Assembly: GCF_029855125.1 (NCBI RefSeq)
Contig: NZ_CP123229.1
Location: forward strand, 2,393,501 to 2,457,500
DNA length: 64,000 nucleotides
From: Methylocapsa sp. D3K7
GTDB lineage: Bacteria > Pseudomonadota > Alphaproteobacteria > Rhizobiales > Beijerinckiaceae
Direction of reading: 5' to 3'
The translations under genes and the position numbers were made by a program. The notes below the pieces were generated by a model. The model saw only the letters and a program-made list of their open reading frames with translations. It had not been told where the DNA came from and ran no database searches. Positions 8,157 through 59,413 of the stretch are shown here, piece by piece (position 1 is the first letter of the stretch; every line of letters begins with the position of its first letter).

Positions 8157-8165
8157 GACCCAACG

Positions 8166-40740: not shown

Positions 40741-41952
40741 TTAAAGTTGGACGGCATCAAGCGCCTGAAGGATGTCGTCCTTCAAATCTGAAAGTGTTTC
40801 CAGCCCAATAGAAAAGCGGATGAGTCCATCGCTGATGCCATGCTTCCGCCGCTCTTCTTCCGTGTAAGTGGAATGAGTCATACTGGCGGGATGCTGGACA
40901 AGCGTCTCGGCGTCGCCAAGACTTACGGCTCGGGTCACCAGGGAAAGTCGGTTCATGAAGGCCATCCCCTCTTTCTTGCCGCCTCGCAATTCGCAAGCGA
41001 CCAAACCACCGAACGCCGCCATCTGGCGTCGTGCAAGTTGGTGGAATGGCGAGTGCGCTAGCCCGGGATAGGAAACCCGGGTGACCGCGCGATGCTGCTC
41101 CAGCAGCTCGGCGATGGCCAGCGCCGACGAGCAATGACGTTCCATACGCAGTTCTAGCGTCTTCAGGCCGCGCAAAAGGAGGAACGCGGTCAGCGGAGCA
41201 ATGGTGGCACCCGTGAGGTAGCGCAACCCCTGGCGCCGGATCGTTTCGACGATGCTTCTTGGTCCCGCGACGACGCCAGCGATAAGGTCGCCATGCCCCC
41301 CAATGAACTTGGTCGCTGAATGCACAACGAGGTCGGCGCCCAGGAGGATGGGCTGCTGCAATGCGGGCGTGGCGAAGGTATTGTCGACGATAACCAGGGC
41401 TCCGGCCTGGTGCGCGATCCGACCGACGGCGGCAACGTCAATGATCCTGAGATTCGGATTCGCCGGAGACTCGAAAAAGACGAGCTTTGGCGCGCCGAGG
41501 CTTACGGCCGCTTCGACCGCATCGAGATCTGTGAAGTCCGCCACCACCACCTTCACTCCAAAGCGGGTCAAGCCACGCACAAAAAGGACAAAACTGTTGC
41601 CGTAGAGGGTGTGATCGATAACCACCTGGTCTCCCGCCTGCAGCAGCGTCCATAAGGTCGAGCTGATGGCCGCCATGCCGGAGGCCACGGCGAGACCGGC
41701 CTCGGCACTCTCCAGACTGGCGAAACGCTCCTCAAAGAGGGCCTGTGTAGGATTGCGTGTTCGCCCGTACACATAGCCTTCCCGTTCACCCCGAAAAATC
41801 TCCTCACCAGCCTCCGCTGTCTCGAAGGCATAAGTGGAGGTCATGAAGACGGGCGGCGTCAACGCGCCCGACTCATCGGCGGGCCTGTAGCCAACGTGGA
41901 TGGCCCTGGTGGCAAACCCTTCCTTGGCCTGGTTTGAGGTATCCCTACCCAT
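40741..41952 (-). CDS. Cys/Met-metabolism PLP enzyme (methionine gamma-lyase-like)
   Basis: 403 aa from the ATG at 41952. Fold type I PLP enzyme of the trans-sulfuration family: TRAIHVGYRPADESGALTPP, YGRTRNPTQ, and the PLP Lys in VHSATKFIGGHGD. These enzymes break or make C-S bonds at the beta or gamma carbon (methionine gamma-lyase, cystathionine lyases, sulfhydrylases). It is the last gene of the coenzyme M operon, 110 nt behind the SauS-like gene. A role in sulfur supply to coenzyme M or in C-S cleavage of a cysteine adduct is an inference from position. Confidence 0.8.
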   Translation of the reverse strand: MGRDTSNQAKEGFATRAIHVGYRPADESGALTPPVFMTSTYAFETAEAGEEIFRGEREGYVYGRTRNPTQALFEERFASLESAEAGLAVASGMAAISSTLWTLLQAGDQVVIDHTLYGNSFVLFVRGLTRFGVKVVVADFTDLDAVEAAVSLGAPKLVFFESPANPNLRIIDVAAVGRIAHQAGALVIVDNTFATPALQQPILLGADLVVHSATKFIGGHGDLIAGVVAGPRSIVETIRRQGLRYLTGATIAPLTAFLLLRGLKTLELRMERHCSSALAIAELLEQHRAVTRVSYPGLAHSPFHQLARRQMAAFGGLVACELRGGKKEGMAFMNRLSLVTRAVSLGDAETLVQHPASMTHSTYTEEERRKHGISDGLIRFSIGLETLSDLKDDILQALDAVQL

Positions 41953-42061
41953 TTTTCTGGAGCCTCCGCTTTGTTGTGTCTGCCACCCATTTGCGCCTAT
42001 AGAAACGCCGGAAATTGACGAGTCGATCGAATCGCGTCGCCTAACTATGCGGGCACCACGC

Positions 42062-43495
42062 TCACTCATTGCCGTATTTTGCCCAGTGAGCGCCGAATAT
42101 CTCATCCGCCACTAGTCGGCGCGGCGTCATCGGGCGGGAGACCCAGGTTAGATTGAAGAAATGGCGGACATTGACGTTCTCGGTCGTGATATTCCCGCCC
42201 CAGGATCCGCAGGATAGCGAAAGAGTGTAGGGAAGCCCATTGCGAACGCTGCCTGCCCCTTCGTTCATGCTCTGGTTGACCATTACGCGCGCCGTTTTGG
42301 TGCCAAGGGCCAATGCCAGGACATGATCGTTGCGACTGCTGTGGATACCGCACGTGTGACCGGCGCCTTGGTACTGTGTGATTTGGTTGACCAGGTCGAC
42401 CGCGCCGTCAATACCCCCGCTGTATCGGTAGAGTGCAAGCACCACCGACAGCTTTTCTCCCGAAAACGGATGGACCTCGCCGACGCCCTCCTCCTCGACC
42501 ACGAGGAAAGTGCGGTCCGGAGCGATCTCGATTCCAGCCAATTCGGCAATCCGGGCAGCGGGCTTAGCGACAACCTCGATCAACGGAATGTGCCCATCCT
42601 TCGGCCACATAACGGCTTGCAGGTGGGCTTTTTCGGCCGGAGTGCAAACATGACCGCCGCGCTCGATGAGCTTACCCTTCAGTGTTTCGTAGATGGAGGA
42701 GTGGGCGGCGACGGAATTGTCGGCGAGGCAGCTCGTCGCGTAATCGAAGGTCTTCGCGTTGGCGATCATTTGCGCGGCGTCGTCGAGGTCGGCGCTCTCA
42801 TCGACGACATGCACGGCATTGCCGACTCCAACGCCATAGGCCGGCGTCCCGGAGCTGTACGCCGCTTTCACCATGCCGGCGCCGCCCGTCGCAACAATCA
42901 AGTCGCTCATGCGCATCAGCAGTTCGGTCTTTGCAATCGACGGACGTTCGATGACCTGGATGAGGTCGGCTGGCGCTCCGACCTGCAGACATCCCTTGCG
43001 CATGACCTCGACAACCGCCGCGGACGTCTTCCTGGTCCGCGGATGGGGCGCGATGATGATCGCATTGCGCGCCTTTAGCGCCCCTAGCGCCTTAACCGGT
43101 GGCGTGGCGTCCGGCCCCGTGGTGGGAATGAGAGCGGCAATGACGCCGACCGGCTTGGCGATCTTGACCAAGCCACGCGCCGGGTCTTCCTCGACGATGC
43201 CACAGGTCTTGATCGAAGCCATGTCGGCCAGGGTTCCCATCACGCGATTGGCGAACTTGGCGATCTTGTCTTGAACATTACCAAAGCCTCCCTCTTCGAC
43301 TGCAAGTTTGGCCAGCGCCTCGCGCGACTTGTAGACCTGCCACCCCACCGCCGTGACCAGGGCGTCCGCCTGTTCCTGGGCATAGTTTCCTATTGCGGCC
43401 TGCGCATCGCGCGCCCGCCCCACCATCGCTTCTATTTCGCAGCGCGCCTCGTCTTCGGCGGCAACAACAGCGGGAGCCTTCGTGAGCGTCTGCAT
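42062..43495 (-). CDS. sauS: Acylating sulfoacetaldehyde dehydrogenase (SauS-like)
   Basis: 477 aa from the ATG at 43495, which follows AAGGAGGG; a TTG at 43519 overlaps the ligase stop but is less likely. CoA-acylating aldehyde dehydrogenase: Cys in FDYATSCLADNSVAAHSS, IIIAPHPRTRKTSAAVVEVM, and VEEEGVGEVHPFSGEKLSVV, which closely follow what I know of SauS from Cupriavidus necator. SauS turns sulfoacetyl-CoA and NADPH into sulfoacetaldehyde (or the reverse). Other acylating aldehyde dehydrogenases are alternatives. Its place next to an acyl-CoA ligase and coenzyme M genes supports a C2-sulfonate substrate. Confidence 0.7.
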   Translation of the reverse strand: MQTLTKAPAVVAAEDEARCEIEAMVGRARDAQAAIGNYAQEQADALVTAVGWQVYKSREALAKLAVEEGGFGNVQDKIAKFANRVMGTLADMASIKTCGIVEEDPARGLVKIAKPVGVIAALIPTTGPDATPPVKALGALKARNAIIIAPHPRTRKTSAAVVEVMRKGCLQVGAPADLIQVIERPSIAKTELLMRMSDLIVATGGAGMVKAAYSSGTPAYGVGVGNAVHVVDESADLDDAAQMIANAKTFDYATSCLADNSVAAHSSIYETLKGKLIERGGHVCTPAEKAHLQAVMWPKDGHIPLIEVVAKPAARIAELAGIEIAPDRTFLVVEEEGVGEVHPFSGEKLSVVLALYRYSGGIDGAVDLVNQITQYQGAGHTCGIHSSRNDHVLALALGTKTARVMVNQSMNEGAGSVRNGLPYTLSLSCGSWGGNITTENVNVRHFFNLTWVSRPMTPRRLVADEIFGAHWAKYGNE

Positions 43496-43515
43496 GGTCT
43501 CGCCCTCCTTCTTGC

Positions 43516-45600
43516 TCAAGCGAGCGCCACAGAATCGGCGACGCGCATGCGCACGTCGACGATAGTGAATTCATCGCTATCCGCGATGATGGGATTGAGG
43601 TCCAGTTCGCCGAGCCAGGTGGCGGCGCAGAACCATTGCGACAGGTCGGCGATCAATCGGGAGAATCGAAAGAGATCGATTGGCGGGCGGCCTCGATATC
43701 CGGCAAATAGCTTACGGCCTTTCAGCTCATCCAGCATGGTCCGCGCTTCCTCGGCTTCGATCGGCGCCAAGCGCAGGGCCACGTCATCCAAGATTTCCGT
43801 CCACACACCGCCGAGGCCGGCCATTACGATCGGCCCAAAGAGCGGATCACGCCGAGCCCCGAGGATCAGTTCGGCACCAGGTCCCGCCTGCCGCTGCAAA
43901 AGAGCCGGGCCGGCGCCTAGCCGGCGAGAGAAATCCTCGAATGCCTCGGCGACGGCGGCGCCATCGGTGAGGCCCAGGCGCACGGCGCCTGCGTCGCTTT
44001 TATGCGTCAACTTGGGGCGCTCGGCCTTGAGGACGACCGGAAATTGCAACTTGGCTGCCGCCGCGGCTGCAGCGGCAGGGTCAGTAACTACGATCCAGCG
44101 CGCCACGGGGAAGCCCGCCTGCTGCAGCAGAGAAAGTGCGGCGGCCGAGTTCAACCAGCCCGCGTCGTCGACAGCCGCAGGCTGCGGAATTGGCTCGCCT
44201 GCAGACAGGCGCGCCAGTGGTCGGATCGGTCGCGAGACAGTGGCGGCAAGAGCAGCAGCTGTCGCCCCAGGCCAAGCGTGGCAGGGCACCCCGGCCGCTT
44301 GCAGCTTATTGCGATTGGCGTCAGCCGATCGCTGCGCCACCCAGCAGACGTGGATCGGCTTGATTGAGCCTCGCTGACGCGCTCGTTCACTCGCCGCAAT
44401 GACGGCGTCGCAGACCTCAGGCATTAGCGCCGAGCGCTGCAACAGGATGGGAACAACTGCGTCCACTTCGCTGGACGTCATTAGTGCTTCAACCGTAAAT
44501 TCGTACATTGCGGCGAAGCGCTGCCAGTCGGTCGTGACGTCGATAGGATTGACGGCCGAACCTTGCGGCGGCAGTTGGCTTGCGATCGTCGCTTGCAGCC
44601 CCGGTGATAGAGCTGGAACGGCGAGACCTTTCGACTCGAGCAGATCGGTCAGCTCCACGCCTGCGCCGCCGGAATTGGTGACGATGCCGATATTGCGGCC
44701 GCGCAGTGGCGGCTGGCGATCGAGGGAAGCGGCCACGTCGAGAAGCGCCAGGCCATCTTCGACGAGATGAACGCCTGCCTGACGGAGCGCCGCGAAAATG
44801 ATCGCCTCGTCGCCGGAGAGCGCGGCCGTGTGGCTGGCTGCTGCCCTTTGGGCGTCGGGATGACACCCTGTCTTCAACACCACCACGGGCTTTCTCATCA
44901 CTACCGCCGCCGCTGCCTCGAACAGCCGGCGGCCATCGGAGATCGATTCTAGCAGCATGGCGACGACCTTCGTCTCCGGATCCCGCCCCATAAATTCGAG
45001 TAGCTCGACTTCATTGAGGTCAATCTTATTGCCAAGGGCAGCAATCTTGGCGAAGCCAATGCCGTCATCCACCGAGCGCGAATACGCCGCCATTCCATAG
45101 GCTCCACTCTGAGTGAGCAGGGAAATGCCCCCGCGTCCGGGCAAGCCGATGGATAGGGAACCGTTGAGGCCGGACGCGGTGTTGATGACGCCAAAACAGT
45201 TCGGGCCGAGAATCCGCACTCCATGTGCAGCCGCTATGCTGGCCACCTTGCGCTGCAGCTCGACGCCGCGTGGCCCAGTCTCGGCGAAGCCGCCGCTGAT
45301 AACGATAACGACAGGAACCCCTGCGGCGCCGCAGTCGGCAATTACGTCCGGCACAGCCGTCGGCGGCGTGATGACGATCGCCAAATCGACCGGCTCGGGA
45401 ACAGCTCCGAGACTGGGATAGGCTGGACAACCCAGGATCTCGCTGGCCGACGGATGGATCGCAACGACCTCGCCGGCGAAGCCCGCCTCAACTGCCGTCA
45501 GATTACGCAGGAACAAGGCTCCAGCTTTGCCTTGAGAGGCCGAAGCTCCGACGACCGCCACTCGGCGCGGGGTGAACAGAGCGTCTTGCCAATCAGTCAC
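43516..45600 (-). CDS. ADP-forming acyl-CoA ligase (candidate sulfoacetate-CoA ligase)
   Basis: 694 aa, GTG start overlapping the xcbE stop (GTGA). Domains: CoA-binding Rossmann part (VAVVGASASQGKAGALFLRN), ligase middle part (GRGGISLLTQSGAYGMAAYS; IGIVTNSGGAGVELTDLLES) and C-terminal ATP-grasp (LKAERPKLTHKSDAGAVRLG). This fused layout is that of NDP-forming acetate-CoA ligases. With the SauS-like enzyme it would convert sulfoacetate to sulfoacetyl-CoA and then sulfoacetaldehyde. Cupriavidus uses an unrelated ligase for this, so the substrate is an inference. An organic acid from the epoxide pathway is the main alternative. Confidence 0.75.
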   Translation of the reverse strand: MTDWQDALFTPRRVAVVGASASQGKAGALFLRNLTAVEAGFAGEVVAIHPSASEILGCPAYPSLGAVPEPVDLAIVITPPTAVPDVIADCGAAGVPVVIVISGGFAETGPRGVELQRKVASIAAAHGVRILGPNCFGVINTASGLNGSLSIGLPGRGGISLLTQSGAYGMAAYSRSVDDGIGFAKIAALGNKIDLNEVELLEFMGRDPETKVVAMLLESISDGRRLFEAAAAVVMRKPVVVLKTGCHPDAQRAAASHTAALSGDEAIIFAALRQAGVHLVEDGLALLDVAASLDRQPPLRGRNIGIVTNSGGAGVELTDLLESKGLAVPALSPGLQATIASQLPPQGSAVNPIDVTTDWQRFAAMYEFTVEALMTSSEVDAVVPILLQRSALMPEVCDAVIAASERARQRGSIKPIHVCWVAQRSADANRNKLQAAGVPCHAWPGATAAALAATVSRPIRPLARLSAGEPIPQPAAVDDAGWLNSAAALSLLQQAGFPVARWIVVTDPAAAAAAAAKLQFPVVLKAERPKLTHKSDAGAVRLGLTDGAAVAEAFEDFSRRLGAGPALLQRQAGPGAELILGARRDPLFGPIVMAGLGGVWTEILDDVALRLAPIEAEEARTMLDELKGRKLFAGYRGRPPIDLFRFSRLIADLSQWFCAATWLGELDLNPIIADSDEFTIVDVRMRVADSVALA

Positions 45601-46601
45601 GACATTCCCTCCACGGCAGCGGTGAACAGGCTCGGTGCGCCACCGGTATGCAGAAAGAGAACGTCATCCGCACCGGCATAGCGGCCTTGCGATAGTAGCG
45701 CGCTGTAGCCGGCCATGGCTTTGCCAGTATAGGTGGGATCGAGGAATACGCCTTCGGCGCGCGCTGTTGCGGCAATCGCGTTTTGCCCTTGTGGCGACGG
45801 TACGCCGTACCCCACTCCGAGGAAGCCATCATGGACGCAGAGTTCGACGCTACTGAGCTGCGCAGGACAATCGAGCACGGCGGCTGCTTCGGCCGCTAAA
45901 TTCCGGGCTCGCGCCAAAGCCTCAACTGCCGGCCGGCTAACGGTGATCGCTTCCAGCCGCCAAACTGCGCCGAACAACGCGGTGCCTAATAGCCACCCTG
46001 CCAGCGTTCCGGCCCCTCCCACGGCCATAACTACTGCTCGCGGCATGATGCCGAGAACCGCGCACTGTTCGAGGGTCTCGCGTACCGCCAGTACGTGGGC
46101 CAGGACACCGAGGGCGCAAGCGCCTCCGCGAGGAACGCTAAAAGGTCGACCGCCCCGCGCGACAACCTTGGCTGCGGAGGCCTCGATTCCGCGATCCACA
46201 GAAGCGCGGTCCGCATCGCCGGTAAAGACAATCTCCGCCCCGAGCACTCGGGTCAACCAATGGTTTCCTTCGGCCCTCAACGGCGGTTCCCCCCAGTAAA
46301 TGGCGACACAACGTAATCCGGTCATGGCAGCCACTCCAGCGCTAGCCCGTACGTGGTTCGAGAGGGGACCGGCACCGGTAACCAAAGTGTCGGCGCCTTG
46401 GCGCAGCGCTTCGGCGATGATGAGATCCAAGGAACGAACCTTATTGCCGCCGAATGCAAACGGGAGGAGATCATCCCGCTTGAACCACAGTTGTGGGCCG
46501 CCAAGCGCAGCCGAAAGGCGGCAGGCGGGGGCGAGCGGCGTCGGTTCCGTCACGAGCGACAGACGCGGCAGCGCATCGAGGTCGGCGGTCCAGGAGGTCA
46601 C
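45597..46601 (-). CDS. xcbE: D-cysteine desulfhydrase/ACC deaminase-family PLP enzyme of coenzyme M synthesis
   Basis: 334 aa from the GTG at 46601, which overlaps the xcbD stop (GTGA) and follows GGGAG; an upstream start at 46643 overlaps by 46 nt and is less likely. Fold type II PLP enzyme: KRDDLLPFAFGGNKVRSLDL contains the PLP Lys, then GAGPLSNHVRASAGVAAM and AVGGAGTLAGWLLG. A protein of this family (XcbE1) belongs to the bacterial coenzyme M pathway of Xanthobacter autotrophicus Py2. It follows ComA and two lyases here, as there. L-cysteate sulfo-lyase (CuyA) is of the same family and is the main alternative. Confidence 0.75.
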   Translation of the reverse strand: MTSWTADLDALPRLSLVTEPTPLAPACRLSAALGGPQLWFKRDDLLPFAFGGNKVRSLDLIIAEALRQGADTLVTGAGPLSNHVRASAGVAAMTGLRCVAIYWGEPPLRAEGNHWLTRVLGAEIVFTGDADRASVDRGIEASAAKVVARGGRPFSVPRGGACALGVLAHVLAVRETLEQCAVLGIMPRAVVMAVGGAGTLAGWLLGTALFGAVWRLEAITVSRPAVEALARARNLAAEAAAVLDCPAQLSSVELCVHDGFLGVGYGVPSPQGQNAIAATARAEGVFLDPTYTGKAMAGYSALLSQGRYAGADDVLFLHTGGAPSLFTAAVEGMS

Positions 46602-47956
46602 GGCGGGCTCCCATTTAGGACCCGGTCTACCAGCTCTTGACACTGCCCGGTGTGGGCCTCAATGGAAAACAGTCGGCCGATTTCCTTCTCCGTCAGGTGA
46701 ACACGGATGTCCGGATCCTCCGCAGCGATGACGGCGAAGGACTTGTCTTCGCTCCGCGCCGAGGCGGCCAGCCGTTGAACCACACGATGCGCTGTCTGCT
46801 TACCGATGTGGCGGGCGAGGGCGAGCACGAGGGCTTCCGAAAAGAGATGCCCTCCAGAAGCTTCCACATTGGCGCGCATGCGGTCGGCTCGCACCTCTAG
46901 CCCGGCGAGTAGGGACGCGAGCAAGGCATGGGCCTTGCTTGCCGCCATGGTTAGCTCCGGCACGGCATGCCATTCCGCCTTCCACGACCTGCCATCGCGC
47001 TCGTGGTCGTGAACCAAGCCTTCGGTAAGAAGCCCGGCATTGGCCCGCACCACTCGGGCCAGGGTTCCGAGATGCTCGGCCATCTCCGGGTTGCGTTTGT
47101 GCGGCATTGTGATGCTGCCCACCCCGCCGGCTAGGGATGGTTCGCGGAGTTCGGCGATCTCGTCGCGCTGCAGGTTGTAAATTTCATGGCCAATCCGATC
47201 GGCGGTGCCGGTGGAAAGCACGAGCAGATGCGCCCATTCGGCTAGGATATCGCGGCTCGCCGTCCATGACATGTCCGGCTCACGCAGGCCGAGACGCCCG
47301 AAAAATTGCTTTTGCACCGCCAGCGCCTGGGTACCCATGGCCGAAAGACTACCGACGCCGCCGCAAAGCTGGCCGATGTCCATCCGCTTTGTGGCCTCGT
47401 CGAAACGTTGCCGGTGACGTCGCAGCTCGGCGAGCCACCCTGCAGCCTTGAAGCCGAAGGTGATCGGCAAGCCTTGCTGGCCGTGGGTTCGCCCGGCCAT
47501 GGCCGTGTCGCGGTGGCGGCGGCAAAGTTCAGCCGTCGTCACCATCGCGCGCTCGAGGTCGGCGACAAGCAGGCCGCGCGCTTCGCGCAGCGTAAGTATG
47601 AGCCATGTATCGGTAAGATCCTGGACAGTGGCCCCGAAGTAGAACCATTCGCCACCGGACGAGGAGCATCGGCGCCCGACGGCCGCGATAAGGCCGGCCA
47701 TCGAATGGCAGGTTGCTTGGTATCCTTCCCGGCACTCCCCCAGAAAGCCAGCGTCGACCACGATCGATCGGCATGTCGCCTGAATGTCTCGGGCCGCCTC
47801 CGCTGGAATGAGCTCATGCTCAGCCTGGATTTCCGCCAACAGGTCCAGCAGATCGAGCCATCGCCGAGTTCGCGGCACATCGGCGAATAGCGCCCGCATC
47901 TCCTGCGTAGCCCACGCATCGCCATAGATGGCCGAGCCGAATGACCATTCCGTCAT
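46598..47956 (-). CDS. xcbD: Aspartase/fumarase-superfamily lyase of coenzyme M synthesis (second)
   Basis: 452 aa, start overlapping the xcbC stop by ATGA. Superfamily signature GSITMPHKRNPEMAEHLGTL near residue 280, and the two other conserved blocks (AGRTHGQQGLPITFGFKAAG; the N-terminal SMAGLIAAVGRR region). Looks like the adenylosuccinate lyase/cycloisomerase branch. The bacterial coenzyme M route uses two members of this superfamily after ComA. Which of the two steps (phosphate elimination or a later addition/elimination) this one does cannot be told from sequence. The xcbD name follows gene order. Confidence 0.75.
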   Translation of the reverse strand: MTEWSFGSAIYGDAWATQEMRALFADVPRTRRWLDLLDLLAEIQAEHELIPAEAARDIQATCRSIVVDAGFLGECREGYQATCHSMAGLIAAVGRRCSSSGGEWFYFGATVQDLTDTWLILTLREARGLLVADLERAMVTTAELCRRHRDTAMAGRTHGQQGLPITFGFKAAGWLAELRRHRQRFDEATKRMDIGQLCGGVGSLSAMGTQALAVQKQFFGRLGLREPDMSWTASRDILAEWAHLLVLSTGTADRIGHEIYNLQRDEIAELREPSLAGGVGSITMPHKRNPEMAEHLGTLARVVRANAGLLTEGLVHDHERDGRSWKAEWHAVPELTMAASKAHALLASLLAGLEVRADRMRANVEASGGHLFSEALVLALARHIGKQTAHRVVQRLAASARSEDKSFAVIAAEDPDIRVHLTEKEIGRLFSIEAHTGQCQELVDRVLNGSPP

Positions 47957-49482
47957 TTGGCGTCTCCCACGAACGTCTCCGCCTCGGTGTGGAGGCGGCG
48001 GAGGGCAATTTCCCGGCGTGCGCGCGCGGCCTCGAAGTCGTGGCGGCGCTCACCAACCGCCTCAGTCAGTACGGAAGCCATCGCCGTCACCTCTTCCGGT
48101 GCAGCTCCGCCAACATCGGTCCTCACTGCGACGCAGGCCGCCGGATCGAGCGCCGCTGCGACCAATCCATCAGAGACGCCATCGGTTGGCAGGCCAGCGG
48201 CCCGCAAGGCGTTGCCGACGTCGCTCACGGTCGCCTCGGCTAAACTACGGCCATTCTCTTCCAGCGTTCCGACGAGACGGCCAACAACTCCATGGGCGGA
48301 GCGATAATCGATTCCGGTTGCCCCCATCAGGCGCTCGGCGAGATCGGAAGCGCATGTCGACCGATCGTCCAAGGCGGCAAGGGCACGGGCCTCGTTTATG
48401 CTCAGCCCATCCACGCATTCGGCGACCAGGGACGCAACCTCGCCAGCGGAGCGCACCGCGTCCGGCACCGCCTCATAGGCGAAAAAGCGATTGTCCATCT
48501 GGCCCGAAGGTGTCCGGGCAGCAGCGGCGATTCCAGCCTGCGCGCCAATCAGTCGATTTGCCACAGCCCTGACGAAGGCCAGTGCGAATGGATTGCGCTT
48601 TTGCGGCATGATTTTACTAGCCCGAGCGTGGCGGTCGGCCAGCCTGACGAACCCGAATTCGGCCGAGGAGAAGATCATCAGATCCTCCACCAAGCGATCC
48701 AAATTAACCGCCGCCATCACGGCAACGGCAGATGCTTCAAGGGCAATGTCGGCCTGCCACATGGCATCGCGGGCGTGTCGAACCGGCTCGCGAAAACCTA
48801 GCCGGTCGGCCAGCTTGCGCCGATCCTGCATCGTTACCGAGCCGTTGGAACTGCCGATGCCAGCCGGGCACTCGTCGACCCGGTCGTAAAGGGCGCGGAC
48901 CCGATCGAGGTCGCGCAGCATCGGCCAAGCAAAGGACTGAATGTAATGGCCAAATGTGGTCGGTTGGGCCGCCTGTAGATAGGTATAGTCGGGCATCAAA
49001 GCGTCTCGGTGCCGCAAGGAGACTGCATTGAGGGCCTCGGCCGCCTTGGCCAGGGCCTCGCCGAGGCCAAGTAGTTCGTCGCAGAGAGTCAGATGATAGG
49101 CCGTTGTCAGCGCCTCGCGCCGGGCCCGTGCGACGCCCAGCCAGCCGACCGCCTCGGTGCGTTCGGCGAGCCATGCCTCCCGATTCGTGTACAGGTCGCC
49201 GTAACCGCCGGTCGGCGAGAAGGAGGATGGCGCCTTGTCGAGCGCAAGAAGAGCTGCGATCAAGGCGCGGGCGCTATCGCGAGGGATGATGCCTCGCTCG
49301 GCAAGGGTCATCGTATGTGCGAGATCGACCCACCCGATCGACCGGGTCAGGCCTTGTTGCGCTTGCAGCTCGCGACTGAACGCAATGTCGGTGAGGCACC
49401 TCGATGGCGCTTCCATCAACCGTTCCCCGACCTCCAGAACGGCGGCGCCGGGGATTTCGCGGAAGGGGATGGTCGGCCTCAT
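47953..49482 (-). CDS. xcbC: Aspartase/fumarase-superfamily lyase of coenzyme M synthesis (first)
   Basis: 509 aa; GGAGAGAAAA before the ATG, which overlaps the comA-like stop (ATGA). Argininosuccinate-lyase branch: signature [40 protein letters not shown] and [20 protein letters not shown]. In Xanthobacter the first such enzyme removes phosphate from phosphosulfolactate to give sulfoacrylate. The position right after the ComA homologue fits that job. Substrate assigned by context only. Confidence 0.75.
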
Positions 49483-50369
49483 TTTTCTCTCCGGGCGGGT
49501 CCGATCGGGACCGCATTCTCAACCCGCGCCGGATCCCAGCGGCCGGAACCGATGGATTGATTGGCGACCGTCGAAAACGTTTCGAAACGCAAGCCGCAGC
49601 GCAGGGCCTCCAGAGCAAGGCATTCTTGCGGTCGGATATTGCCCAGGCTAACATTGGCGCCGAAGCGGCAAACCAAATAGGCCTGCTGGGTGCCGAGGGG
49701 AGCCTCCCAAATCAGGCGAGGCGCGGAATCGCCGACCAATCCGATGATCTCGTCAAGGAAACTGGTGCGGATTTCGCCCTTCTGGTCGTAAATGCCGATG
49801 CCTTGGCCGCACTCCCTGCCTTCGATGATCACCCAGGAGGCGCCCCAGGTCAGATCCTTCAAGACCTGCTCGGCCAGTTCCTCAGCCGTCGGCTGCCGCT
49901 TAGGATCTTTGCGGCCAACCTCGGTGATGGCGACAAGCCCCGCGTCGCGCGCGCAGTCTATGACCCGCCGGCGACGGTCTCCGGGCAGGTCGATCGTCCC
50001 CTCGGAAATCTCGATCGCCCCGAACCCCAGCTCCTTCGCGTGTCGCATGAAGACGCGGCAATGCTGCTGAACGATGGCCGCTTCGAGCAAGGTGCCGCCG
50101 GGATAAGTCAAGACGTCGCGCTCACGGAGTAGTGCCAGCTTCTCCTCAAGAATCGCCAGCGGCATCAAGGCTGAGGTGCCGAAACCGAACTTCCAATGGT
50201 CGATATGCTCGCCCGCCAGCGCCAAGATGTCCCGCAAGGCGGTGGCACCGAGGCCGGTGTCAATGATCATCGTGACACCGGTCGTCCGCGGCCGGCGGAT
50301 CCTGCGGTTTACGATCACGTCGAGGGACCATACGCCCTGCCAGGGCGATCTAAACCCAGTCGATGTCAC
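49479..50369 (-). CDS. xcbB: Phosphosulfolactate synthase, ComA family (coenzyme M synthesis)
   Basis: 296 aa with a GTG start (GAGGGAG seven bases upstream) inside the end of the preceding gene. Adds sulfite to phosphoenolpyruvate, the first step to coenzyme M. TIM-barrel family signature throughout: [110 protein letters not shown] and VSLGNI. The match to ComA is strong over the whole length. Outside methanogens ComA homologues also occur in Bacillus spores (sulfolactate) but the lyase and xec neighbours settle the coenzyme M role. Confidence 0.9.
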
Positions 50370-51288
50370 GCGACAGCTCCCTCAAGGCCTGTTCAATCAT
50401 CGACAGGTTTGCTCCCCACGGGACCACCATGATCTCGCCCTCACGTTCGATGTCGAATTCCCAAAGACAGCATTTCAGGATGGTCGGCTCGCGCCGGCGG
50501 CCGGCAATAATGCGCGGGCACATTTCTACTCGCCGCGGCTCATCGCCATAGAAGTGGCGGTGGAACTGCAGGCTACGTTCGCAGCCGATCAGGGTCCAGT
50601 CGCGGCGTTTGGCGGGCCGCTCGTCGAGGTAGTAAACCGGGGCGCCGAGGTCGTCGAGGCCCCCTGATCTGCAGGGGACCAGGAAGGCCGGCACCGAGAT
50701 GTCCCGCACAAGATCTTTTAGTTCTATACGCTCAAGGACCGGGATGATCGGAGGTAGATCGGCGTAACTGAGAACGTGGCAAACGAGGTCGAAGAGCTTC
50801 GGAGGCTCGGGAGGAGCTACTTCGACGACTTTAAGAACGAAGGGACTCGGATGATGGATGAAGTTGACGTGGTCGTATTTCCCTTCGCAGATCAGCGTCC
50901 GGTCTTTGCCGATGCCGTGGCGCCTCGCCAGTGCGGCTAGGGCCGACCGGTTTGCACAGTCGGTTTGGGGCTCGCGCACGTAAGCGCAGGAATCCGGTAG
51001 AGCCAAGACCTCCACATGCACGATCGGCGCGAAAAGAGGCTCCCGGTCGGTGGCATCGACGGCGATTATCGCGTGTCTTCCGTCCGGCGCGCAAAGCACG
51101 ATAAACTCGGTGCGGCGGTACGTCTCCCGGCCGAGGAAGAAGCTCGCAATGCCATGCTCCGTCATTGGGCCGTCATAGCCCTGGACGCTGACCCCGCGGT
51201 ATGGCAGCGGAACGACGTTGAGCTTGTCCTTGAACAGTGGGCGGACAGGCTTGGCGGTGGAGTGGAGCGGGCCGGCTGATGCGGGCAT
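50350..51288 (-). CDS. Unrecognised 312-aa protein in the coenzyme M operon
   Basis: Start ATG at 51288 after GGGAGGAAAGTCTT. No signal peptide, no membrane span, and no motif that I can assign (possibly one of the recent DUF families). It has many Cys and His residues ([35 protein letters not shown]) and ordered beta-like stretches ([40 protein letters not shown]). It overlaps xcbB by 20 nt and follows the CoA-transferase genes by 20 nt, so it is made with both. Candidates: a reductase or thiol-transfer step, or an assembly factor. All inference. Confidence 0.6.
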
Positions 51289-51308
51289 AAGACTTTCCTC
51301 CCAAGCCC

Positions 51309-52148
51309 CTAGGCGATTGCATATCCGCGCCGCATATCCTCGGCGCGGATCTCCTTCTCGTGGACCTTGAGCGGATCGAGCCGCCGGATGAGTTCGACCA
51401 CGGAGCGCTCCGGCGCTGGAATCGTCTCGACCTGGGCGGCGAGCCCGGGCGTGAAGCCCGTGTTCTCTAGAACCTCGTCTATTGAGGTGTCGGGGTACAC
51501 CGCAATTAGACGAGCCTTCCCGTCGGCATCGAAGTCAAACAAGCCGAGTTCGGTCACAAGCCATTGGGGGCCGTTGCCGCGATGGCCGAGCTCCTTTGCC
51601 GGCCGTCCGTCTCGAGTGCGATGGCCGAGATTGGTGATGAAATCGCAGTCCTCTACCAGACGGAATCGGCGCTGGCCCTTGGCGTCCTCCGGGGAACGAT
51701 GGGCCGTGGTCCAAAGGGTGACGTAGGCGGCGTCGCAGGACAGATTACAGCCACCACCGCCGCCGGGCAATTTGAGCGTGATATTCGGATAGCCCAGCGC
51801 AGTAACGTTGCAGTTGCCCCATCTGTCGATCTGTAGGCCGGAGAGAAACATCCGTCCCATGCGCCCTGCCGCTGCGAGGTCGAACAGCTCACCAATAGCG
51901 AGCGATGATGATGCACCGCGGTCCATCACCCAGTCATTAGTCGTTGGGGCTAGGAAGGGCGGTTCGGGGTTGACGCCATAGGTGGCACCGGCCACCAAGA
52001 CCATGCGGGGCGCATGGGTCCGCTTAGCCACATGCATGGCGAGCTGGATCAGCGGCGATCCGAATCCGTGGAAGACCAGCGTTCCATCCTCTATCGTGCG
52101 GGCGAGCGTTGCAATCATCATCTCGCCCAGGGTGCAGCTTGTCGTCAT
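51309..52148 (-). CDS. CoA-transferase, beta subunit (glutaconate CoA-transferase type)
   Basis: 279 aa, start overlapping the alpha stop (ATGA). Family signs: MIATLARTIEDGTLVFHGFG, VMDRGASSSLAIGELFDLAA, FLSGLQIDRWGNCNVTALG and KLPGGGGGCNLSCDAAYVTL. With the alpha subunit it would move CoA onto a carboxylic acid. In this operon the natural acid is the beta-keto acid made by 2-KPCC (acetoacetate from propene), giving acetoacetyl-CoA. The family also acts on glutaconate, 3-oxoadipate and steroid-derived acids. Confidence 0.75.
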   Translation of the reverse strand: MTTSCTLGEMMIATLARTIEDGTLVFHGFGSPLIQLAMHVAKRTHAPRMVLVAGATYGVNPEPPFLAPTTNDWVMDRGASSSLAIGELFDLAAAGRMGRMFLSGLQIDRWGNCNVTALGYPNITLKLPGGGGGCNLSCDAAYVTLWTTAHRSPEDAKGQRRFRLVEDCDFITNLGHRTRDGRPAKELGHRGNGPQWLVTELGLFDFDADGKARLIAVYPDTSIDEVLENTGFTPGLAAQVETIPAPERSVVELIRRLDPLKVHEKEIRAEDMRRGYAIA

Positions 52149-53104
52149 GCCACCGCCTCATCCAGGTAGAGCCGTTTCCAGGCTTCGGGACCGTCGCACC
52201 AGGAGGAAAGACGGGCGCGGGTCTTTTCGCCGCCGATCCGCGCCAGATAATCGGCGTGGTCTGGCACGCCGTGGACGAAAACAGAGAGATACTCGACCGA
52301 GAAGGTGCCGGCGCCTTTGCGGGCGGCCTCGTAGTACAGGGCGGTATGGCGCCGGTCGTAGGCATAGAGGGGATAGCAGGCGGTGGGATGCGCGCCAAAC
52401 GGGACCTCGCTCACAGCAGTCACATAGAAATACGGGATGGTGACACCGCCAAGTTCGCTTAGCCGCTCGGTCGGGACGATCTCTTCGACGGTCGCCAGCA
52501 CAGCGCGGGACGCCTTCGCGAACAGAATGTCGGCAACCGGCGGTCCCTGGATCAGTAGGTTGCCCTGAGCGTCCCCATACTGGGCGTGAACGAGGGCAAC
52601 GTCGGGCTCGATTGCCGGCACCAGAAGCAGCTCTTCGCCGGTAAAGGGGCAAACCATTTGCCTATACTCCGGGTGAAGCGAGAGAAAGCTGGTGCCTCGG
52701 ACCGACCGCACGGGCATGAAAGGTAAGCCTTGGATCGCGGCTCGCAACTGCTGCACCAGAGTGTAGCAGCAGCTGTCATCAACGCTGACGGTTCCGGATT
52801 CCAGCGCGCGCCGGTAATTCGGCGCCATGCCAAAATCCTGCTCGAAACCGACATAGCTCTCGGAAGACCGCGAAATGGCGCCGCCGCCGCTCAGCAGGTC
52901 GATATCAATGCCATGCGCCGAGCCCACTACGGTGAGACCCTTGACGCCATGGCGCAGCATGGCCCGCAACAAGGCCATGGGCTCACGCGAGGACAGGCCG
53001 CCGCCGACCGCGACAAGGGCGCCATCGGCGACCCGTGCTGCGAGATCCTCAAGCGTCGTCCGCTTGTCGTGGTCGGTATATACGGGGCGTGGGGTCCGAG
53101 CCAT
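52145..53104 (-). CDS. CoA-transferase, alpha subunit
   Basis: 319 aa from the ATG at 53104 (AAGGCGGCAAG before it); a TTG at 53122 is less likely. The start LEDLAARVADGALVAVGGGL and the later TGEELLLVPAIEPDVALVHA and QYGDAQGNLLIQGPPVADIL are typical of the alpha subunit of class I-like CoA-transferases. Overlaps the beta gene by 4 nt. A 29-codon SDR-like remnant lies just upstream. Confidence 0.75.
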   Translation of the reverse strand: MARTPRPVYTDHDKRTTLEDLAARVADGALVAVGGGLSSREPMALLRAMLRHGVKGLTVVGSAHGIDIDLLSGGGAISRSSESYVGFEQDFGMAPNYRRALESGTVSVDDSCCYTLVQQLRAAIQGLPFMPVRSVRGTSFLSLHPEYRQMVCPFTGEELLLVPAIEPDVALVHAQYGDAQGNLLIQGPPVADILFAKASRAVLATVEEIVPTERLSELGGVTIPYFYVTAVSEVPFGAHPTACYPLYAYDRRHTALYYEAARKGAGTFSVEYLSVFVHGVPDHADYLARIGGEKTRARLSSWCDGPEAWKRLYLDEAVA

Positions 53105-53118
53105 CTTGCCGCCTTCTG

Positions 53119-53208
53119 TCAAATCGCCGCCATGCCGCTATCGACCGCCATGACAAAAACAGCACCGGTGATCCTTGCTGCTCTCCTATCCTCCCATCGC
53201 TTCGACAT
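53119..53208 (-). pseudogene. 29-codon SDR remnant (start fused to C-terminus)
   Basis: Preceded by GGAGGT. Reads MSKRWEDRRAARITGAVFVM and AVDSGMAAI. The second half looks like the C-terminus of a short-chain dehydrogenase (ITGAVFVVDGGMAA in relatives), and the first part equals the start of the remnant at 54987. It appears to be an SDR gene that lost its middle. Confidence 0.5.
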
Positions 53209-53326
53209 TCTCAGACCTCCCTCGGAAAATCACGATTACCCACCGCAACGGGCGGCAATTCATTAAGTTGCCGAATGGCGACGAGACCCGGGGCTCAGAC
53301 CGGCCGAAAAAAGAAGATAGTACGCC

Positions 53327-54925
53327 CTACCGGGAGGGGTTGCGAATCAGATCCGCCGCCTTCTCGGCTATCATGATCGTTGGCGCGTTCGTGTTGCCGC
53401 CCACGATCGTCGGCATGATCGACGCGTCCACGACCCGCAATCCTTCAGTTCCGCGCACTTTCAGACGGGGATCAACGACCGCCATCTCGTCATTGCCCAT
53501 CTTGCATGTGCCAGCCGGGTGCCAAGTGGTGGAGGCGGTGCGCCTAATGAAGGACTCGATATCCGTGTCGCTTCTCACATTCACTCCCGGCGCTATCTCC
53601 TCGCCACGGATGTCATCGAATGGCCTGGCGTACAGAATTCTGAGGTTCCAACGCACACCTGAAACGGCGCATCTCATGTCGTCGGATACGCTCAAGTAGT
53701 TGAAGTTGATCATCGGCCGATCAAGGGGATCGGACGAAGCGAGTGTGATCTCGCCGCGGCTAAGCGGCCGATTGATATAGGAGGTGAAGGTTATACCATG
53801 CCGGTTTGGCGGCCCGGCTTCGGGGTAATCAGGAGAGAGAGTCATCAGGAAGAATAGTTGCAGTGCGGGATTCGCCTCTTTTGGTTCGCTTTTGACAAAA
53901 GCTCCTGCCTCCAGGAAGTTCGAGCCGAGCGCGCCGCCTCGATGCGCTTCGTACTTCTGAAGTTCGGCCGCCTTCATTTCATCGGGAAGCGGGGCGAAGG
54001 TGAGCGGTTGCATGATCTCGCAACGCACTCTCGTGTGAAGGTGATCCTGCAGATTCTTTCCCACACCCGGGAGATCCAGGCGAACATCGATCCCCTGCCG
54101 CTTGAGTTCGCCCTTTGGTCCGATTCCGGAAAGCATCAGTAACTGCGGTGAACGCAAAGCGCCTGCGGAAACGATGACCTCACAGGCCGCGCGCGCGCGC
54201 TCGAAGGCTCCGAAGTGGAGATATTCGACTCCCACTGCGCGCGCTCCGGTGAAAATCAGCTTGGTCGCCTGGGCGTGGGTCAGGATGGTCAGGTTCGGAC
54301 GCGAGCGCGCGGGGTGAAGATATGCATCAGCAGCGCTGCAGCGGGCGCGGTTGGCGAGCGTGGCCTGCAAAGGACCGCAGCCTTCCTGAAACTCTCCATT
54401 GAAGTCTGGGTTGAACGGGATGCCCACCTCCTGCGCGGCGGCGAGATAGCGTTCGACGAGAGGGTTCGAAGGCGAATGGCTTTCGACCCTAAGGGGACCG
54501 TCCGCGCCGTGATAGCGGTCGGAAAGGGTCTTATTGCCCTCGGCTTTCACGAAATAAGGCAAGACGTCGTCGTAGCTCCAGCCCTCATTTCCGCAGCGAC
54601 GCCATTCGTCGTAGTCACCGCGATTTCCGCGGATGTAGATCATGTAATTGATGGAGCTCGATCCGCCGAGCACCCGGCCTTGAGGGACAAAGATTCGGCG
54701 CCCATTCAAATGCGCCTGGGGAAGAGTTCTGTAAGCCCAGTCATAGGGGCTGTCCTGGAGACGTCCATAGAATGCCGGTATCCGGATCGAGGGTTCGTCA
54801 TCCTCGCCGCCGGCTTCGAGCAACAATACCCGGCAGGCAGGATCCCCCGTCAATCGGCTTGCCAAGACGCACCCCGCTGATCCGCCACCGACAATGATGT
54901 AGTCGAACATGACTCCTTCCATCAT
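53327..54925 (-). CDS. GMC-family flavoprotein alcohol oxidoreductase
   Basis: 532 aa; the ATG at 54925 overlaps the stop of the upstream remnant (ATGA), while [10 protein letters not shown] at 54910 is the alternative start. FAD motif [21 protein letters not shown] signature [16 protein letters not shown], and the C-terminal HPAGTCKMG with INNY-like [18 protein letters not shown]. Family members oxidise choline, glucose, long-chain or aromatic alcohols. In this operon it may oxidise a hydroxyalkyl compound, possibly the S-hydroxyalkyl-CoM that has no SDR here, or an alcohol made from the alkene side chain. Substrate unknown. Confidence 0.8.
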
Positions 54926-54987
54926 GGGCCGATCCCGGGGCCGGAGTCAGTGGTCATCATCCTCTTGCCTTCCACTCGCTTCGACAT
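54922..54987 (-). pseudogene. 21-codon SDR remnant (N-terminus only)
   Basis: Preceded by GGAGGT. Reads [20 protein letters not shown] then P and stop. Compare the usual SDR start, LEGKRVMVTGAGSGIG: the glycine-rich nucleotide loop is still recognisable. The 40 nt around its start match those at 53208. Its stop overlaps the GMC start, so it may still couple translation. Confidence 0.5.
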
Positions 54988-55027
54988 TCTTGAACCTCCG
55001 ACGGAAGACCAAACGTGCTTGTGTCGA

Positions 55028-57384
<2,357 letters not shown>

Positions 57385-57402
57385 TTACAAATGTCCTCTT
57401 GG

Positions 57403-57600
57403 TCAGCCGCCGCAACAGTGACAACCGGCACCATGCCCGCTCTCCCAAGGATGGGGCTCTGGACGCTTTTCTGGATCTGGCCGCGCGCGGCGGCCGCCGC
57501 ATCCCGAGCACGTCCATTCGGTGGGCATGCGAGCCCCCTTCAGTACGAGGCTCTTCGCTACACGCTCGCAGTCGGGACAGACGATTGTGTAAACTGGCAT
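57403..57600 (-). CDS. FmdB-like zinc-ribbon protein of the xec operon
   Basis: 65 aa from the ATG at 57600 (GGAG seven bases upstream). Two CxxC pairs: IVCPDCERVAK and WTCSGCGGRRA, then a Pro-rich tail ending HPWESGHGAGCHCCGG with three more Cys. Stands between xecA and xecC with gaps of about 60 nt on each side. Could be a metal chaperone for the zinc site of XecA or a small regulator. No published role that I know. Confidence 0.6.
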   Translation of the reverse strand: MPVYTIVCPDCERVAKSLVLKGARMPTEWTCSGCGGRRARPDPEKRPEPHPWESGHGAGCHCCGG

Positions 57601-57661
57601 TTCAACTCCCCTGGTGGCAGGTGTGGCGGGGACCCTCCGGCACCCCCGCCACACGGTTAAG

Positions 57662-58792
57662 TCACTCGGCAGCTACGGCGTGCTGCAGCTTGTCGCGGAC
57701 GAGGTTGGTCCCCTCGACCAGGGCATGGATCTTGTCCTGAGCGATGTATCTCTGCAACAGGATCAGGCCACAATCGGTGGTAACGCCCAATCGATCGGCC
57801 GGAATGACTTTTAGCAGTGCATTGATTCGGTCTGCCACTTGAGTGGCCGTTTCGGTGATCGTGCTCTTCACATCGATTACCCCGGCCCAGAAGTCGATAT
57901 TGTCGGGCAGCGGAAATTCCTTGAAGGCGTCGAGACCCGACATATCGTCGACGCGTCTGCCGCAGTTCTCCAGGTTGAGGACGTTGATGCGCGCTTCGTA
58001 AGCTTTCGGCACGATCGCACGTGTCGCCGCCGGCGCGTTCGCTTTTTCCTTACGTTTCGTCAAGTCATAGATTTCGCCGGGCTTCCCGGTATCGTCCGCA
58101 AAGTAAGCCGGAGTTCCGCCCCAATTACCCCAGCAGACATGGACGACAATGCGCGCGTGCTTGACGCCCTCGACAGCAGTGTTGAATGCCTCAATGGCCC
58201 AGTCCTCGTAAAAATAGGGCCAGGTGAATTCATCCAGCTGGATGAAATCGATGCCCATTGCATCGACCTCCAGAATGTCCTCGTTCATGGCCTTCGCAAT
58301 AGCCAGCGCACGGTCGCGGGAACTCTTGTAGTAGAGATCGTTTGTGCATTGCGCGAGGACTTGGACGCCGGTGTATTGGACTTTGGTAGGCTTGCTCGTC
58401 GCCCGCTTGAGGGCCCGCGCCTGCTCGACCATCATGGCGCCGCGCCGCTTGATCTCCTGCTCGACGGTGCCGGAATGCAGCCGGCTATAGATCGGGAAAC
58501 CGAGATGTCCGCCTCGAAGGTTGTAGCCCATGCAGCGAAAATAGTGGTAGACCGCGTTGTCGGCGTAATTGTCGCCATGGACACGGCCATCCGAGATGAT
58601 GTCGAGACCCGCGTTCTCCTGGTCGACGGCGATGGCCCCAATCGCATCCTCGAGCGCTTCGCGACTCATGGAATCCGGCGGCTCTCGGTCGCCATGGAAA
58701 TGGCGCGCCCACCCTGCGTCCCACCACCTCGGGTTCGGGTAGTTGCCGACCATACTCGTCGGAATTAGGACGTCCTGCCCACGTATTTTCAT
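57662..58792 (-). CDS. xecA: Epoxyalkane:coenzyme M transferase (XecA)
   Basis: 376 aa; GGGAGGAGCAGC directly before the ATG. Zinc enzyme of the cobalamin-independent methionine synthase-like family that adds the CoM thiol to an epoxide ring. The H-x-C-(n)-C zinc site is present at His218, Cys220 (VVHVCWGNWGG) and Cys341 (VTTDCGLILL), the same numbering as in the Xanthobacter protein. Start IPTSMVGNYPNPRWW is also typical. First gene of the operon, so expression of everything down to 40.7 kb probably starts here. Confidence 0.92.
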   Translation of the reverse strand: MKIRGQDVLIPTSMVGNYPNPRWWDAGWARHFHGDREPPDSMSREALEDAIGAIAVDQENAGLDIISDGRVHGDNYADNAVYHYFRCMGYNLRGGHLGFPIYSRLHSGTVEQEIKRRGAMMVEQARALKRATSKPTKVQYTGVQVLAQCTNDLYYKSSRDRALAIAKAMNEDILEVDAMGIDFIQLDEFTWPYFYEDWAIEAFNTAVEGVKHARIVVHVCWGNWGGTPAYFADDTGKPGEIYDLTKRKEKANAPAATRAIVPKAYEARINVLNLENCGRRVDDMSGLDAFKEFPLPDNIDFWAGVIDVKSTITETATQVADRINALLKVIPADRLGVTTDCGLILLQRYIAQDKIHALVEGTNLVRDKLQHAVAAE

Positions 58793-58849
58793 GCTGCTCC
58801 TCCCTCTTGCTTTTTGCGCGCGGACGGCGACATTTTATGGAGCGATTTT

Positions 58850-58908: not shown

Positions 58909-58998
58909 GTGCTTCGAGTCTCGCGTTGCGTAGCGAGGCGCGCCTCGAAGCACGCGCCAGCCCAACACCAAACCAGGGCTTCGCAGCCCTTTTCTCTT
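58909..58998. other. Two hairpins between IS66 and xecA
   Basis: 58909-58953: perfect 10-bp arms GTGCTTCGAG/CTCGAAGCAC with an inner CTCGC/GCGAG. 58975-58990: AGGGCT-TCGC-AGCCCT followed on the plus strand by TTTCTCTT, which looks like a terminator against reading into the operon from the left or a stop for IS66-side transcription. Not part of any gene. Confidence 0.5.
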
Positions 58999-59051
58999 AA
59001 CCTAACTGGTACACTATCTCGCCGCGATCCAGCACATTTTGTCTCCACCGT

Positions 59052-59341: not shown

Positions 59342-59413
59342 GTCTAATTCTACCTCGGAAGGCGATTCAGACCCAGAAGATTTCCCTTATGTTGCTTAGG
59401 TTTTCGCTCATTA

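Follow-up and report, generated by a model that had tools for sequence, protein, structure and literature searches.

What use does a methane-oxidizing bacterium have for genes that both make coenzyme M (CoM) and spend it on epoxides? The question is raised by a 64,000-nucleotide stretch of Methylocapsa sp. D3K7 (bases 2393501-2457500 of a single 4,151,390-base contig; hereafter the window), in which a block running from 58792 to 40741 on the minus strand joins epoxide breakdown through CoM with CoM synthesis, as a sequence-only reading of this DNA had proposed. From its sequence we consider it likely that this is a chromosomal, laterally acquired block with which a methanotroph equipped with particulate methane monooxygenase (pMMO) makes CoM and spends it on epoxides. 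The chief benefit is probably detoxification plus carbon salvage.

Genes that spend and make coenzyme M

All genes of the block are co-directional and every frame is open. Their order is xecA, a zinc-ribbon open reading frame (ORF), xecC, xecD, a GMC flavo-oxidoreductase gene, the genes for coenzyme A (CoA)-transferase subunits A and B, xcbA through xcbE, a ligase gene, a SauS-like dehydrogenase gene, and a gamma-lyase-like gene. Gene content and active-site residues are the observations from which substrates and flux are predicted below.

The xecA (etnE) product (57662-58792), a Pfam Meth_synt_2 protein, is 74% identical to each of the two XecA copies of Xanthobacter autotrophicus Py2 and 47-50% identical to those of Mycolicibacterium NBB4 and Nocardioides JS614, and its zinc-site residues H218, C220, and C341 are present. 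By fold, zinc site, and kinship to Py2 it is an epoxyalkane:CoM transferase (EaCoMT), with epoxide opening as its predicted reaction. The xecC gene (55768-57345) encodes a putative 2-oxopropyl-CoM reductase/carboxylase (2-KPCC) that scores 814.8 bits to 1mo9; its C86-x4-C91, F503, H508, R60, and R369 correspond to C82, C87, F501, H506, R56, and R365 of the Py2 enzyme, which we take to be the redox cysteine pair, the Phe/His pair replacing His-Glu, and the sulfonate-binding arginine pair that distinguish a 2-KPCC. XecD (55028-55771) is a short-chain dehydrogenase/reductase (SDR) resembling 2-(R)-hydroxypropyl-CoM dehydrogenase; 2cfc is its top PDB match, and R149 and R193 align with R152 and R196 of that structure. 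The residues that the sequence-only reading had called diagnostic for these three enzymes are thus all in place in alignments to the Py2 enzymes, 1mo9, and 2cfc.

Synthesis of CoM is represented by the complete bacterial set XcbA-E, each protein scoring above its curated NCBIfam cut-off (score/cut-off in brackets). These are XcbA (DUF7714; 50350-51288; CoM_XcbA_fam, 474.9/150), the phosphosulfolactate synthase XcbB or ComA (49479-50369; TIGR03849, 309.9/280), which is the sole PF02679 match in the genome, XcbC, an aspartase/fumarase-superfamily lyase assigned to the phosphosulfolactate step (47953-49482; CoM_syn_XcbC, 777.9/575), XcbD, a second enzyme of that superfamily (46598-47956; CoM_syn_XcbD, 647.6/600), and XcbE, a pyridoxal phosphate (PLP) enzyme of CoM synthesis (45597-46643; CoM_syn_XcbE, 522.3/450). 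The earlier assignment of ComA, two fumarase-type lyases, and a PLP enzyme to the CoM pathway is thereby borne out, and the host is predicted to produce CoM.

The remaining enzymes would process the products of epoxide opening. Subunits A (52145-53122; Pfam CoA_trans) and B (51309-52148; CoA_trans, 25.3/23) of the CoA-transferase are 73% and 69% identical to their counterparts in a third cluster of Py2, and the nucleoside diphosphate (NDP)-forming acyl-CoA ligase (43516-45600; Pfam ATP-grasp_5/Succ_CoA_lig/CoA_binding_2) is 58% identical to the ligase there. The acylating aldehyde dehydrogenase at 42062-43519 scores 507.3 on the SauS equivalog NF047625 (cut-off 600), so we call it SauS-like only; it is 70% and 65% identical to proteins of JS614 and NBB4, respectively, encoded near the CoM genes of those organisms. 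Such a dehydrogenase has been read as a stand-in for XcbA (PMC11507031), which as a general rule is unlikely because both genes coexist in the window and in 17 retrieved loci (given here, as elsewhere, by L numbers, with G numbers for genomes: L007, L008, L012, L015, L017, L019, L020, L022, L023, L024, L029, L032, L035, L036, L039, L046, and L091). XcbA occurs without a SauS-like gene in the retrieved stretches of Methylocystis (L013, L014, G114, G177, and G281) and in the Py2 clusters.

The last gene of the block (40741-41955) encodes a Cys/Met-metabolism PLP enzyme (Pfam, 433.7 bits) that is methionine-gamma-lyase-like but misses the methionine gamma-lyase cut-offs (586.2/666 and 518.3/549.7) and lies below those of the 25 best NCBIfam families shown. 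Its start is probably at 41955 and not at 42105, because similarity to the Methylocystis homolog begins only at residue 50. In some Methylocystis, a related gene follows the ligase (L014, 15855-17150; L106; L109), with only the first part matching: 298 residues in L014 and about one tenth of the length in the two others.

The 4-nucleotide overlaps described in the sequence-only reading are exact at six junctions; the other junctions range from a 46-nucleotide overlap to gaps, the largest of which (102 and 204 nucleotides) flank the GMC gene. A single transcript for the whole stretch from 58792 to 40741 is plausible.

Two parts of the block have been overlooked. The first, absent from the list of the sequence-only reading, is the 65-residue zinc-ribbon ORF (57403-57600), a homolog of Xaut_4866 of Py2, which has cysteines at positions 8, 11, 31, and 34 plus a C-terminal HP...C-x-CC and matches Pfam Zn_ribbon_8 weakly, under the cut-off. 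After removal of ten repeat loci, 26 of 31 loci had a zinc ribbon on the xecA strand no more than 700 bp from that gene, as judged by a profile that leans to similar ORFs because it was built from matches of the window's own ORF. The five loci lacking it are L056, NBB4, JS614, L025, and L034, with xecA cut by the contig edge in the last two; L015, in which the xecA next to the ribbon is cut, is outside the 31. The ribbon lies 3' of xecA in 19 loci and upstream in seven Methylococcales (L019, L020, L022, L029, L035, L036, and L039). A protein search, which reaches only sequences sharing 5-residue words, confirmed 12 relatives among 12 candidates. The zinc ribbon may assist EaCoMT, itself a zinc enzyme, in metal supply or folding.

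The second is the GMC enzyme (53327-54925; Pfam GMC_oxred_N/C), a choline-dehydrogenase-like flavo-oxidoreductase that scores 604.8 bits on the NCBIfam choline-dehydrogenase family PRK02106 (cut-off 605), just too low for that label to be applied. It stands beside xecD in the place of a second SDR of the XecE type (2-(S)-hydroxypropyl-CoM dehydrogenase), which was not found in a search confined to the operon, where XecD is the sole SDR. A simple replacement of that SDR by the GMC enzyme is not a clean account, because several GMC-bearing Methylococcales clusters also have an SDR about 35-37% identical to XecD. Within the retrieved stretches, the GMC gene is present in 19 of 23 PmoA-positive genomes (it is missing in L016, L020, L033, and L050) and in one of eight without a PmoA match (L035, a metagenome-assembled genome (MAG) named Ca. 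Methylobacter oryzae). This count covers epoxide-type loci from 31 genomes, the window's included, hand-chosen from the best 80 xcbC relatives and from the family-wide xecA search described below; the genomes are related and hence not independent, G172/G300 and G223/G298 were each taken as one genome, and G180 was left unjudged for having too little flank.

Origin and fate of the epoxides

The host encodes pmoC, pmoA, and pmoB in a row. Bacterial CoM synthesis starts from phosphoenolpyruvate and sulfite, and pMMO can in principle produce both epoxyethane and epoxypropane. In the scheme that we propose, XcbA-E would make CoM from phosphoenolpyruvate and sulfite, and pMMO would co-oxidize ethylene and propylene to the corresponding epoxides. 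XecA would then open the epoxide with CoM, the hydroxyalkyl-CoM would be oxidized by XecD and perhaps also by the GMC enzyme, and XecC would reductively cleave the 2-oxoalkyl-CoM, the C3 route yielding acetoacetate with the incorporation of CO2. The resulting acid could be activated by the CoA-transferase or the NDP-forming ligase. For the C2 aldehyde 2-oxoethyl-CoM, the SauS-like dehydrogenase may provide a CoA ester instead. The C3 route is favored because the Phe/His pair of XecC is intact. Consistent with detoxification and salvage, M. aurea has the same gene set and further methanotrophs have similar ones. The host also shows the combination by which detoxification clusters of methanotrophs have been recognized in print, namely etnE with CoM genes, pMMO, and no alkene monooxygenase, the last as judged from the Phenol_Hydrox family.

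The gene set might alternatively be an island that lets the host grow with propylene or ethylene as its carbon source, the epoxide being supplied by an unrecognized oxygenase. Py2 grows on propylene and shares the xecA-xecC-xecD-xcb architecture, and the propylene-type XecA, the XecC with its Phe and His, and the R-type XecD of the window are canonical; the CoA-activation genes and an isocitrate-lyase-family ORF of the host would fit as well. Set against these are the pmoCAB genes of a genome that gave no match to a Phenol_Hydrox-type monooxygenase, the lack of the S-hydroxypropyl-CoM SDR that Py2 has beside xecD, and a location on the chromosome and not on a plasmid. We regard growth on alkenes as improbable, and the label of alkene degrader, to which the sequence-only reading had tied the locus, is unlikely to apply given pmoCAB and the lack of a Phenol_Hydrox-family match.

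Several points nevertheless weigh against a block devoted to detoxification and salvage by a pMMO methanotroph. The absence of a Phenol_Hydrox-type (PF02332) alkene monooxygenase comes from a search that, among oxygenase types, covered only this family and PF02461 (AMO); its positive controls matched in two of eight records (the Py2 plasmid and Methylocystis Sn-Cys) when the Py2 plasmid and seven genomes were searched. With the isocitrate-lyase-family ORF, growth on alkene carbon is conceivable. A consensus scan of the 621 bases upstream from the xecA start gave no sigma-70-like site, although only 0.4 would be expected by chance, and no regulator adjoins the operon among the ORFs scanned.

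A further such point lies in XecC itself. Each of the 22 distinct loci in which the XecC site could be read keeps the equivalent of Phe501, a count that omits same-genome repeat loci, loci too short, and a disulfide-reductase row with a distant (29%) match. At position 506, ten of these loci have His (the window, M. aurea, the MAG USCa_AHI, both full Py2 copies, L016, L018, JS614, L056, and L091) and 12 have Tyr (four Methylocystis, L015, and seven Methylococcales). As the window keeps His at this position and ten of the 14 readable sites from pmoA-positive genomes have Tyr (the other four have His), a model derived from other methanotrophs need not transfer unchanged. By lineage, the Tyr type includes L013, L014, L105, and L107 plus the Methylococcales loci read, and His is found in the Methylocapsa group and Py2.

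A narrower proposal, overlapping the one that we prefer, is that the system handles epoxyethane only, as suggested for Methylohalobius crimeensis; here XecD, the SauS-like dehydrogenase, the CoA-transferase, and the ligase would take 2-hydroxyethyl-CoM to acetyl-CoA, with XecC acting on the CoA ester. The auxiliary genes do resemble those described for the ethene clusters of M. crimeensis and JS60 in the relevant sections of PMC11507031, the SauS-like protein has its relatives at 65-70% identity near the CoM genes of NBB4 and JS614, and an achiral C2 substrate would mean that a single dehydrogenase suffices. Yet the C3-enzyme residues tested in XecC and XecD are kept, including His506, in place of which the Methylocystis and Methylococcales enzymes read have Tyr, and pMMO should be able to form both epoxides. 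We hold restriction to epoxyethane to be rather doubtful and retain the broader reading, in which pMMO-derived epoxides of either size are removed and their carbon salvaged. Since propylene-type active sites are kept in the window, the question of ethylene versus propylene can be tested against the Methylocystis and Methylococcales versions.

Genomic setting and foreign character

The sequence-only reading had placed the block on a plasmid; this is contradicted by the single 4.15-Mb contig and by the 16S rRNA, fumC, and relA genes about 6-20 kb past the end of the window. The block is nonetheless distinct from the chromosome around it. Its GC content is 62.3%, compared with 56.6% in two chromosomal stretches, and its tetranucleotide correlation with the pooled chromosomal stretches is 0.894, compared with 0.919-0.950 for four neighboring segments. 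With E-values up to 1e-80, xecA occurs in only eight of 298 genomes of the family, the host included, and in three of 15 genomes of the host's genus group.

Mobile elements stand on both sides. Upstream of the block are IS66-type remains on the minus strand (58997-60645; a TnpC-like fragment slightly under its Pfam cut-off, TnpB, and a TnpA-type gene). Downstream, on the plus strand, are IstB, the IS21 helper ATPase (38846-39637; NF038214, 249/200), and a Mutator-family transposase with a partial profile match (37268-38296; PF00872, which we take to be IS256-type). The sequence-only reading had given the same insertion sequence (IS) border together with recombinase debris, and no recombinase was found among the scanned ORFs, not every ORF having been scanned. 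Its two relaxase regions are present as plus-strand genes: a MobA/VirD2-type relaxase domain at 4344-5114 (Pfam Relaxase, 88.1/24.6) and an RlxS-like relaxase at 60807-62966 (Pfam DUF3363; NF041267, 686.5, under the cut-off of 850).

No tRNA gene was found in the window, nor were island ends or attachment sites. The left end could not be placed by synteny with G211, the closest complete relative without xecA, because a gene that neighbors fumC in G211 has its host counterpart about 1.1 Mb distant. On the right side, synteny with G211 holds from about 75.5 kb (window coordinates) onward; G103 gave two matches and G076 one. In keeping with mobility, the best fumC match in M. aurea is on another contig than its cluster. 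The chromosomal fumC is 83% identical to that of M. aurea and the block proteins are 83-91% identical, so the block is no less similar than fumC and gives no sign of recent exchange between the two. Composition and distribution suggest that the block is foreign in character and laterally acquired, and present-day mobility is inferred from its neighbors; the transferable catabolic island of the sequence-only reading thus stands as regards foreign composition, IS flanks, and sporadic presence, but not as part of a plasmid.

An old island of this kind could also be a relic whose genes persist without function. Remnants of IS elements do surround the block, a promoter-like site was not found, the gamma-lyase-like gene is matched only in its first part in some Methylocystis, and the third Py2 cluster keeps only pieces of xecA and xecC. 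We consider decay highly improbable for the window, because all frames of the operon are open and match their families. Moreover, for nearly all genes the proteins are at least as similar to M. aurea (83-91%) as the DNA is (84-85%), which, short of a formal dN/dS test, is a hint of selection.

Two further features of the window lie outside the block. Sets of ORFs at 8178-9301 and 12371-13494, arranged alike and 4193 bases apart, look like two copies of one IS; a DDE_3 transposase domain is present in the first set. An MCRA-family protein, presumably of the oleate-hydratase type, is encoded at 24999-26663 (669 bits).

A second xcb lineage and comparison with known systems

When genome contigs were scanned with an alignment of xcbC, 391 relatives emerged; among the best 80, which were examined, M. 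aurea KYG, the MAG USCa_AHI, and several Methylocystis stand nearest to the window. In a rapidly built tree of 91 XcbC rows, the window groups with M. aurea and USCa_AHI (99% by the Shimodaira-Hasegawa-like approximate likelihood-ratio test, SH-aLRT), near Methylocystis and Py2.

The same tree contains a group of 30 rows with 99% SH-aLRT support (L006, L045, L052, L054, L057, L058, L060, L063-L069, L071-L073, L075, L077, L078, L080-L087, L089, and L090) that has no visible link to epoxides. We chose 39 loci, most of them because they are xcb loci without xecA, and searched 37 genomes with XecA. EaCoMT was not found in 34 of these, many of which are MAGs of unstated completeness: 21 gave no match, and 13 gave short fragments and partial matches of no more than 36% identity. 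This leaves Methylocystis Sn-Cys and the genomes of L026 and L074 as exceptions. Within the group of 30, 21 were tested and lack EaCoMT, eight are untested, and one is the second xcb set of Methylocystis sp. Sn-Cys, which has one set of each lineage.

Many of these loci adjoin genes for AllG, FdrA, and carbamate kinase, genes known from the Nit1C neighborhood, and nitrile hydratase genes. The neighbors of these 30 loci, named from Pfam and the Methylocystis iwaonis annotation, are AllG (24 loci), sll0787 (AIR-synthase-like; 19), the radical SAM protein MSMEG_0568 (18), FdrA (18), MSMEG_0572 (17), carbamate kinase (15), the acetyltransferase MSMEG_0567 (13), and nitrile hydratase alpha and beta (12 each), the names FdrA and carbamate kinase being our presumptive assignments from their domains; Nit6803 nitrilase occurs in only four. 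Among 49 other loci, AllG, sll0787, MSMEG_0568, FdrA, MSMEG_0572, carbamate kinase, and nitrile hydratase are found in two to seven, none with xecA in the locus. A flavin adenine dinucleotide (FAD) oxidoreductase does not discriminate (18 of 30 versus 22 of 49).

Synthesis of CoM may therefore not be confined to epoxide users, and we tentatively suggest, with less than even confidence, that CoM or a close sulfonate thiol serves nitrile/cyanide or oxamate nitrogen metabolism in this lineage. Plain CoM is disfavored as the product at the nitrile-hydratase loci, since six of the 12 gave no XcbE match. NCBIfam cut-offs proved uninformative as a test of the second lineage for XcbC, because JS614 and NBB4 (377.7 and 399.1) also fall below 575, alongside Sphingobium (425.0) and Ruegeria (413.3); for XcbD and XcbE, Sphingobium scores 501.9 and 199.0, compared with 695.2-710.8 and 310.4-314.8 in JS614 and NBB4. 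Among the matches listed in a literature search, no publication links xcb with AllG, Nit1C, or nitrile hydratase genes. Two loci on contigs titled Bifidobacterium breve MAG (L053 and L079) are probably misnamed bins, their xcb genes falling together with those of Actinobacteria-titled contigs.

New here are this second lineage, the zinc ribbon in 26 of 31 loci, the bias of the GMC gene toward pmoA-positive genomes, and, in the third cluster of Py2, pieces of xecA and xecC ahead of the order CoA-transferase-xcbABCD-ligase. The cluster type itself is not new. The view that bacterial CoM is limited to a few alkene degraders, repeated in the sequence-only reading, is out of date, because 14 out of 150 methanotroph genomes, one of the five Methylocapsa among them, are reported to have epoxide/CoM clusters (PMC11507031, 2024). 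M. aurea is a carrier there, its cluster being one of two detected as foreign, and the block in the window is not the first case. An isobutylene paper (PMC13188929) describes, in its relevant part, epoxide hydrolysis and not CoM, and has no bearing here.

Among the known systems, JS614 and NBB4 are ethene/vinyl chloride users whose plasmid clusters share EaCoMT, CoA-transferases, the ligase, xcb genes, and a SauS-like gene with the window. They differ in xcb order (B-A-D-E-C), in 35-53% identity for most proteins, and in that GMC and zinc ribbon were not found in the retrieved stretches. The bacterial CoM pathway was worked out in Py2 (cited in PMC12068725). Cluster 2 of its plasmid pXAUT01 reads xecA-zinc ribbon-xecC-xecD-SDR-xcbABCDE in one direction, and its third cluster (L004, about 5978-17251) has CoA-transferases, xcbABCD, and the NDP-forming ligase in the window's order, with mere pieces of xecA and xecC at the front and no xcbE match. 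Py2 differs in carrying these genes on a plasmid, in the alkene-monooxygenase-type genes beside cluster 1, and in having a second SDR where the window has GMC.

The cluster of M. crimeensis 10Ki, as described in the sections of PMC11507031 that concern it, likewise comprises EaCoMT, an SDR, a CoA-transferase pair, an NDP-forming ligase, CoM genes, and a sulfoacetaldehyde-dehydrogenase-like gene, and lies in an island, with IS66 and IS5 directly on the flanks of the cluster. On ethylene, 11 of 13 cluster proteins (EtnE and ten others) are upregulated there without growth on that substrate, and removal of epoxyethane made by pMMO was proposed (PMC11507031). Those sections treat the dehydrogenase as a functional analog of XcbA and name neither an XcbA homolog nor a GMC/choline-dehydrogenase protein, and they report a MEDS regulator; unlike that description, the window has XcbA and a SauS-like gene together.

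The nearest counterpart is M. aurea KYG (NZ_JQKO01000004.1, L012), in which 13 proteins occur in identical order at 83-91% identity and the zinc ribbon is 91% identical over 56 residues. By blastn, the block shared with it spans 42038-58810 (minus strand) in three aligned pieces of 83.6-85.2% DNA identity, with 53114-53320 unaligned and abrupt outer ends: similarity ceases 18 bases 5' of xecA and 24 bases beyond the SauS stop. M. aurea differs in its flanking DNA and in the gamma-lyase-like gene, for which a 55-kb stretch gave no match. Within the Methylocapsa group, the window thus adds a third genome, after M. aurea and the MAG USCa_AHI, to those with a block that would both make and use CoM.

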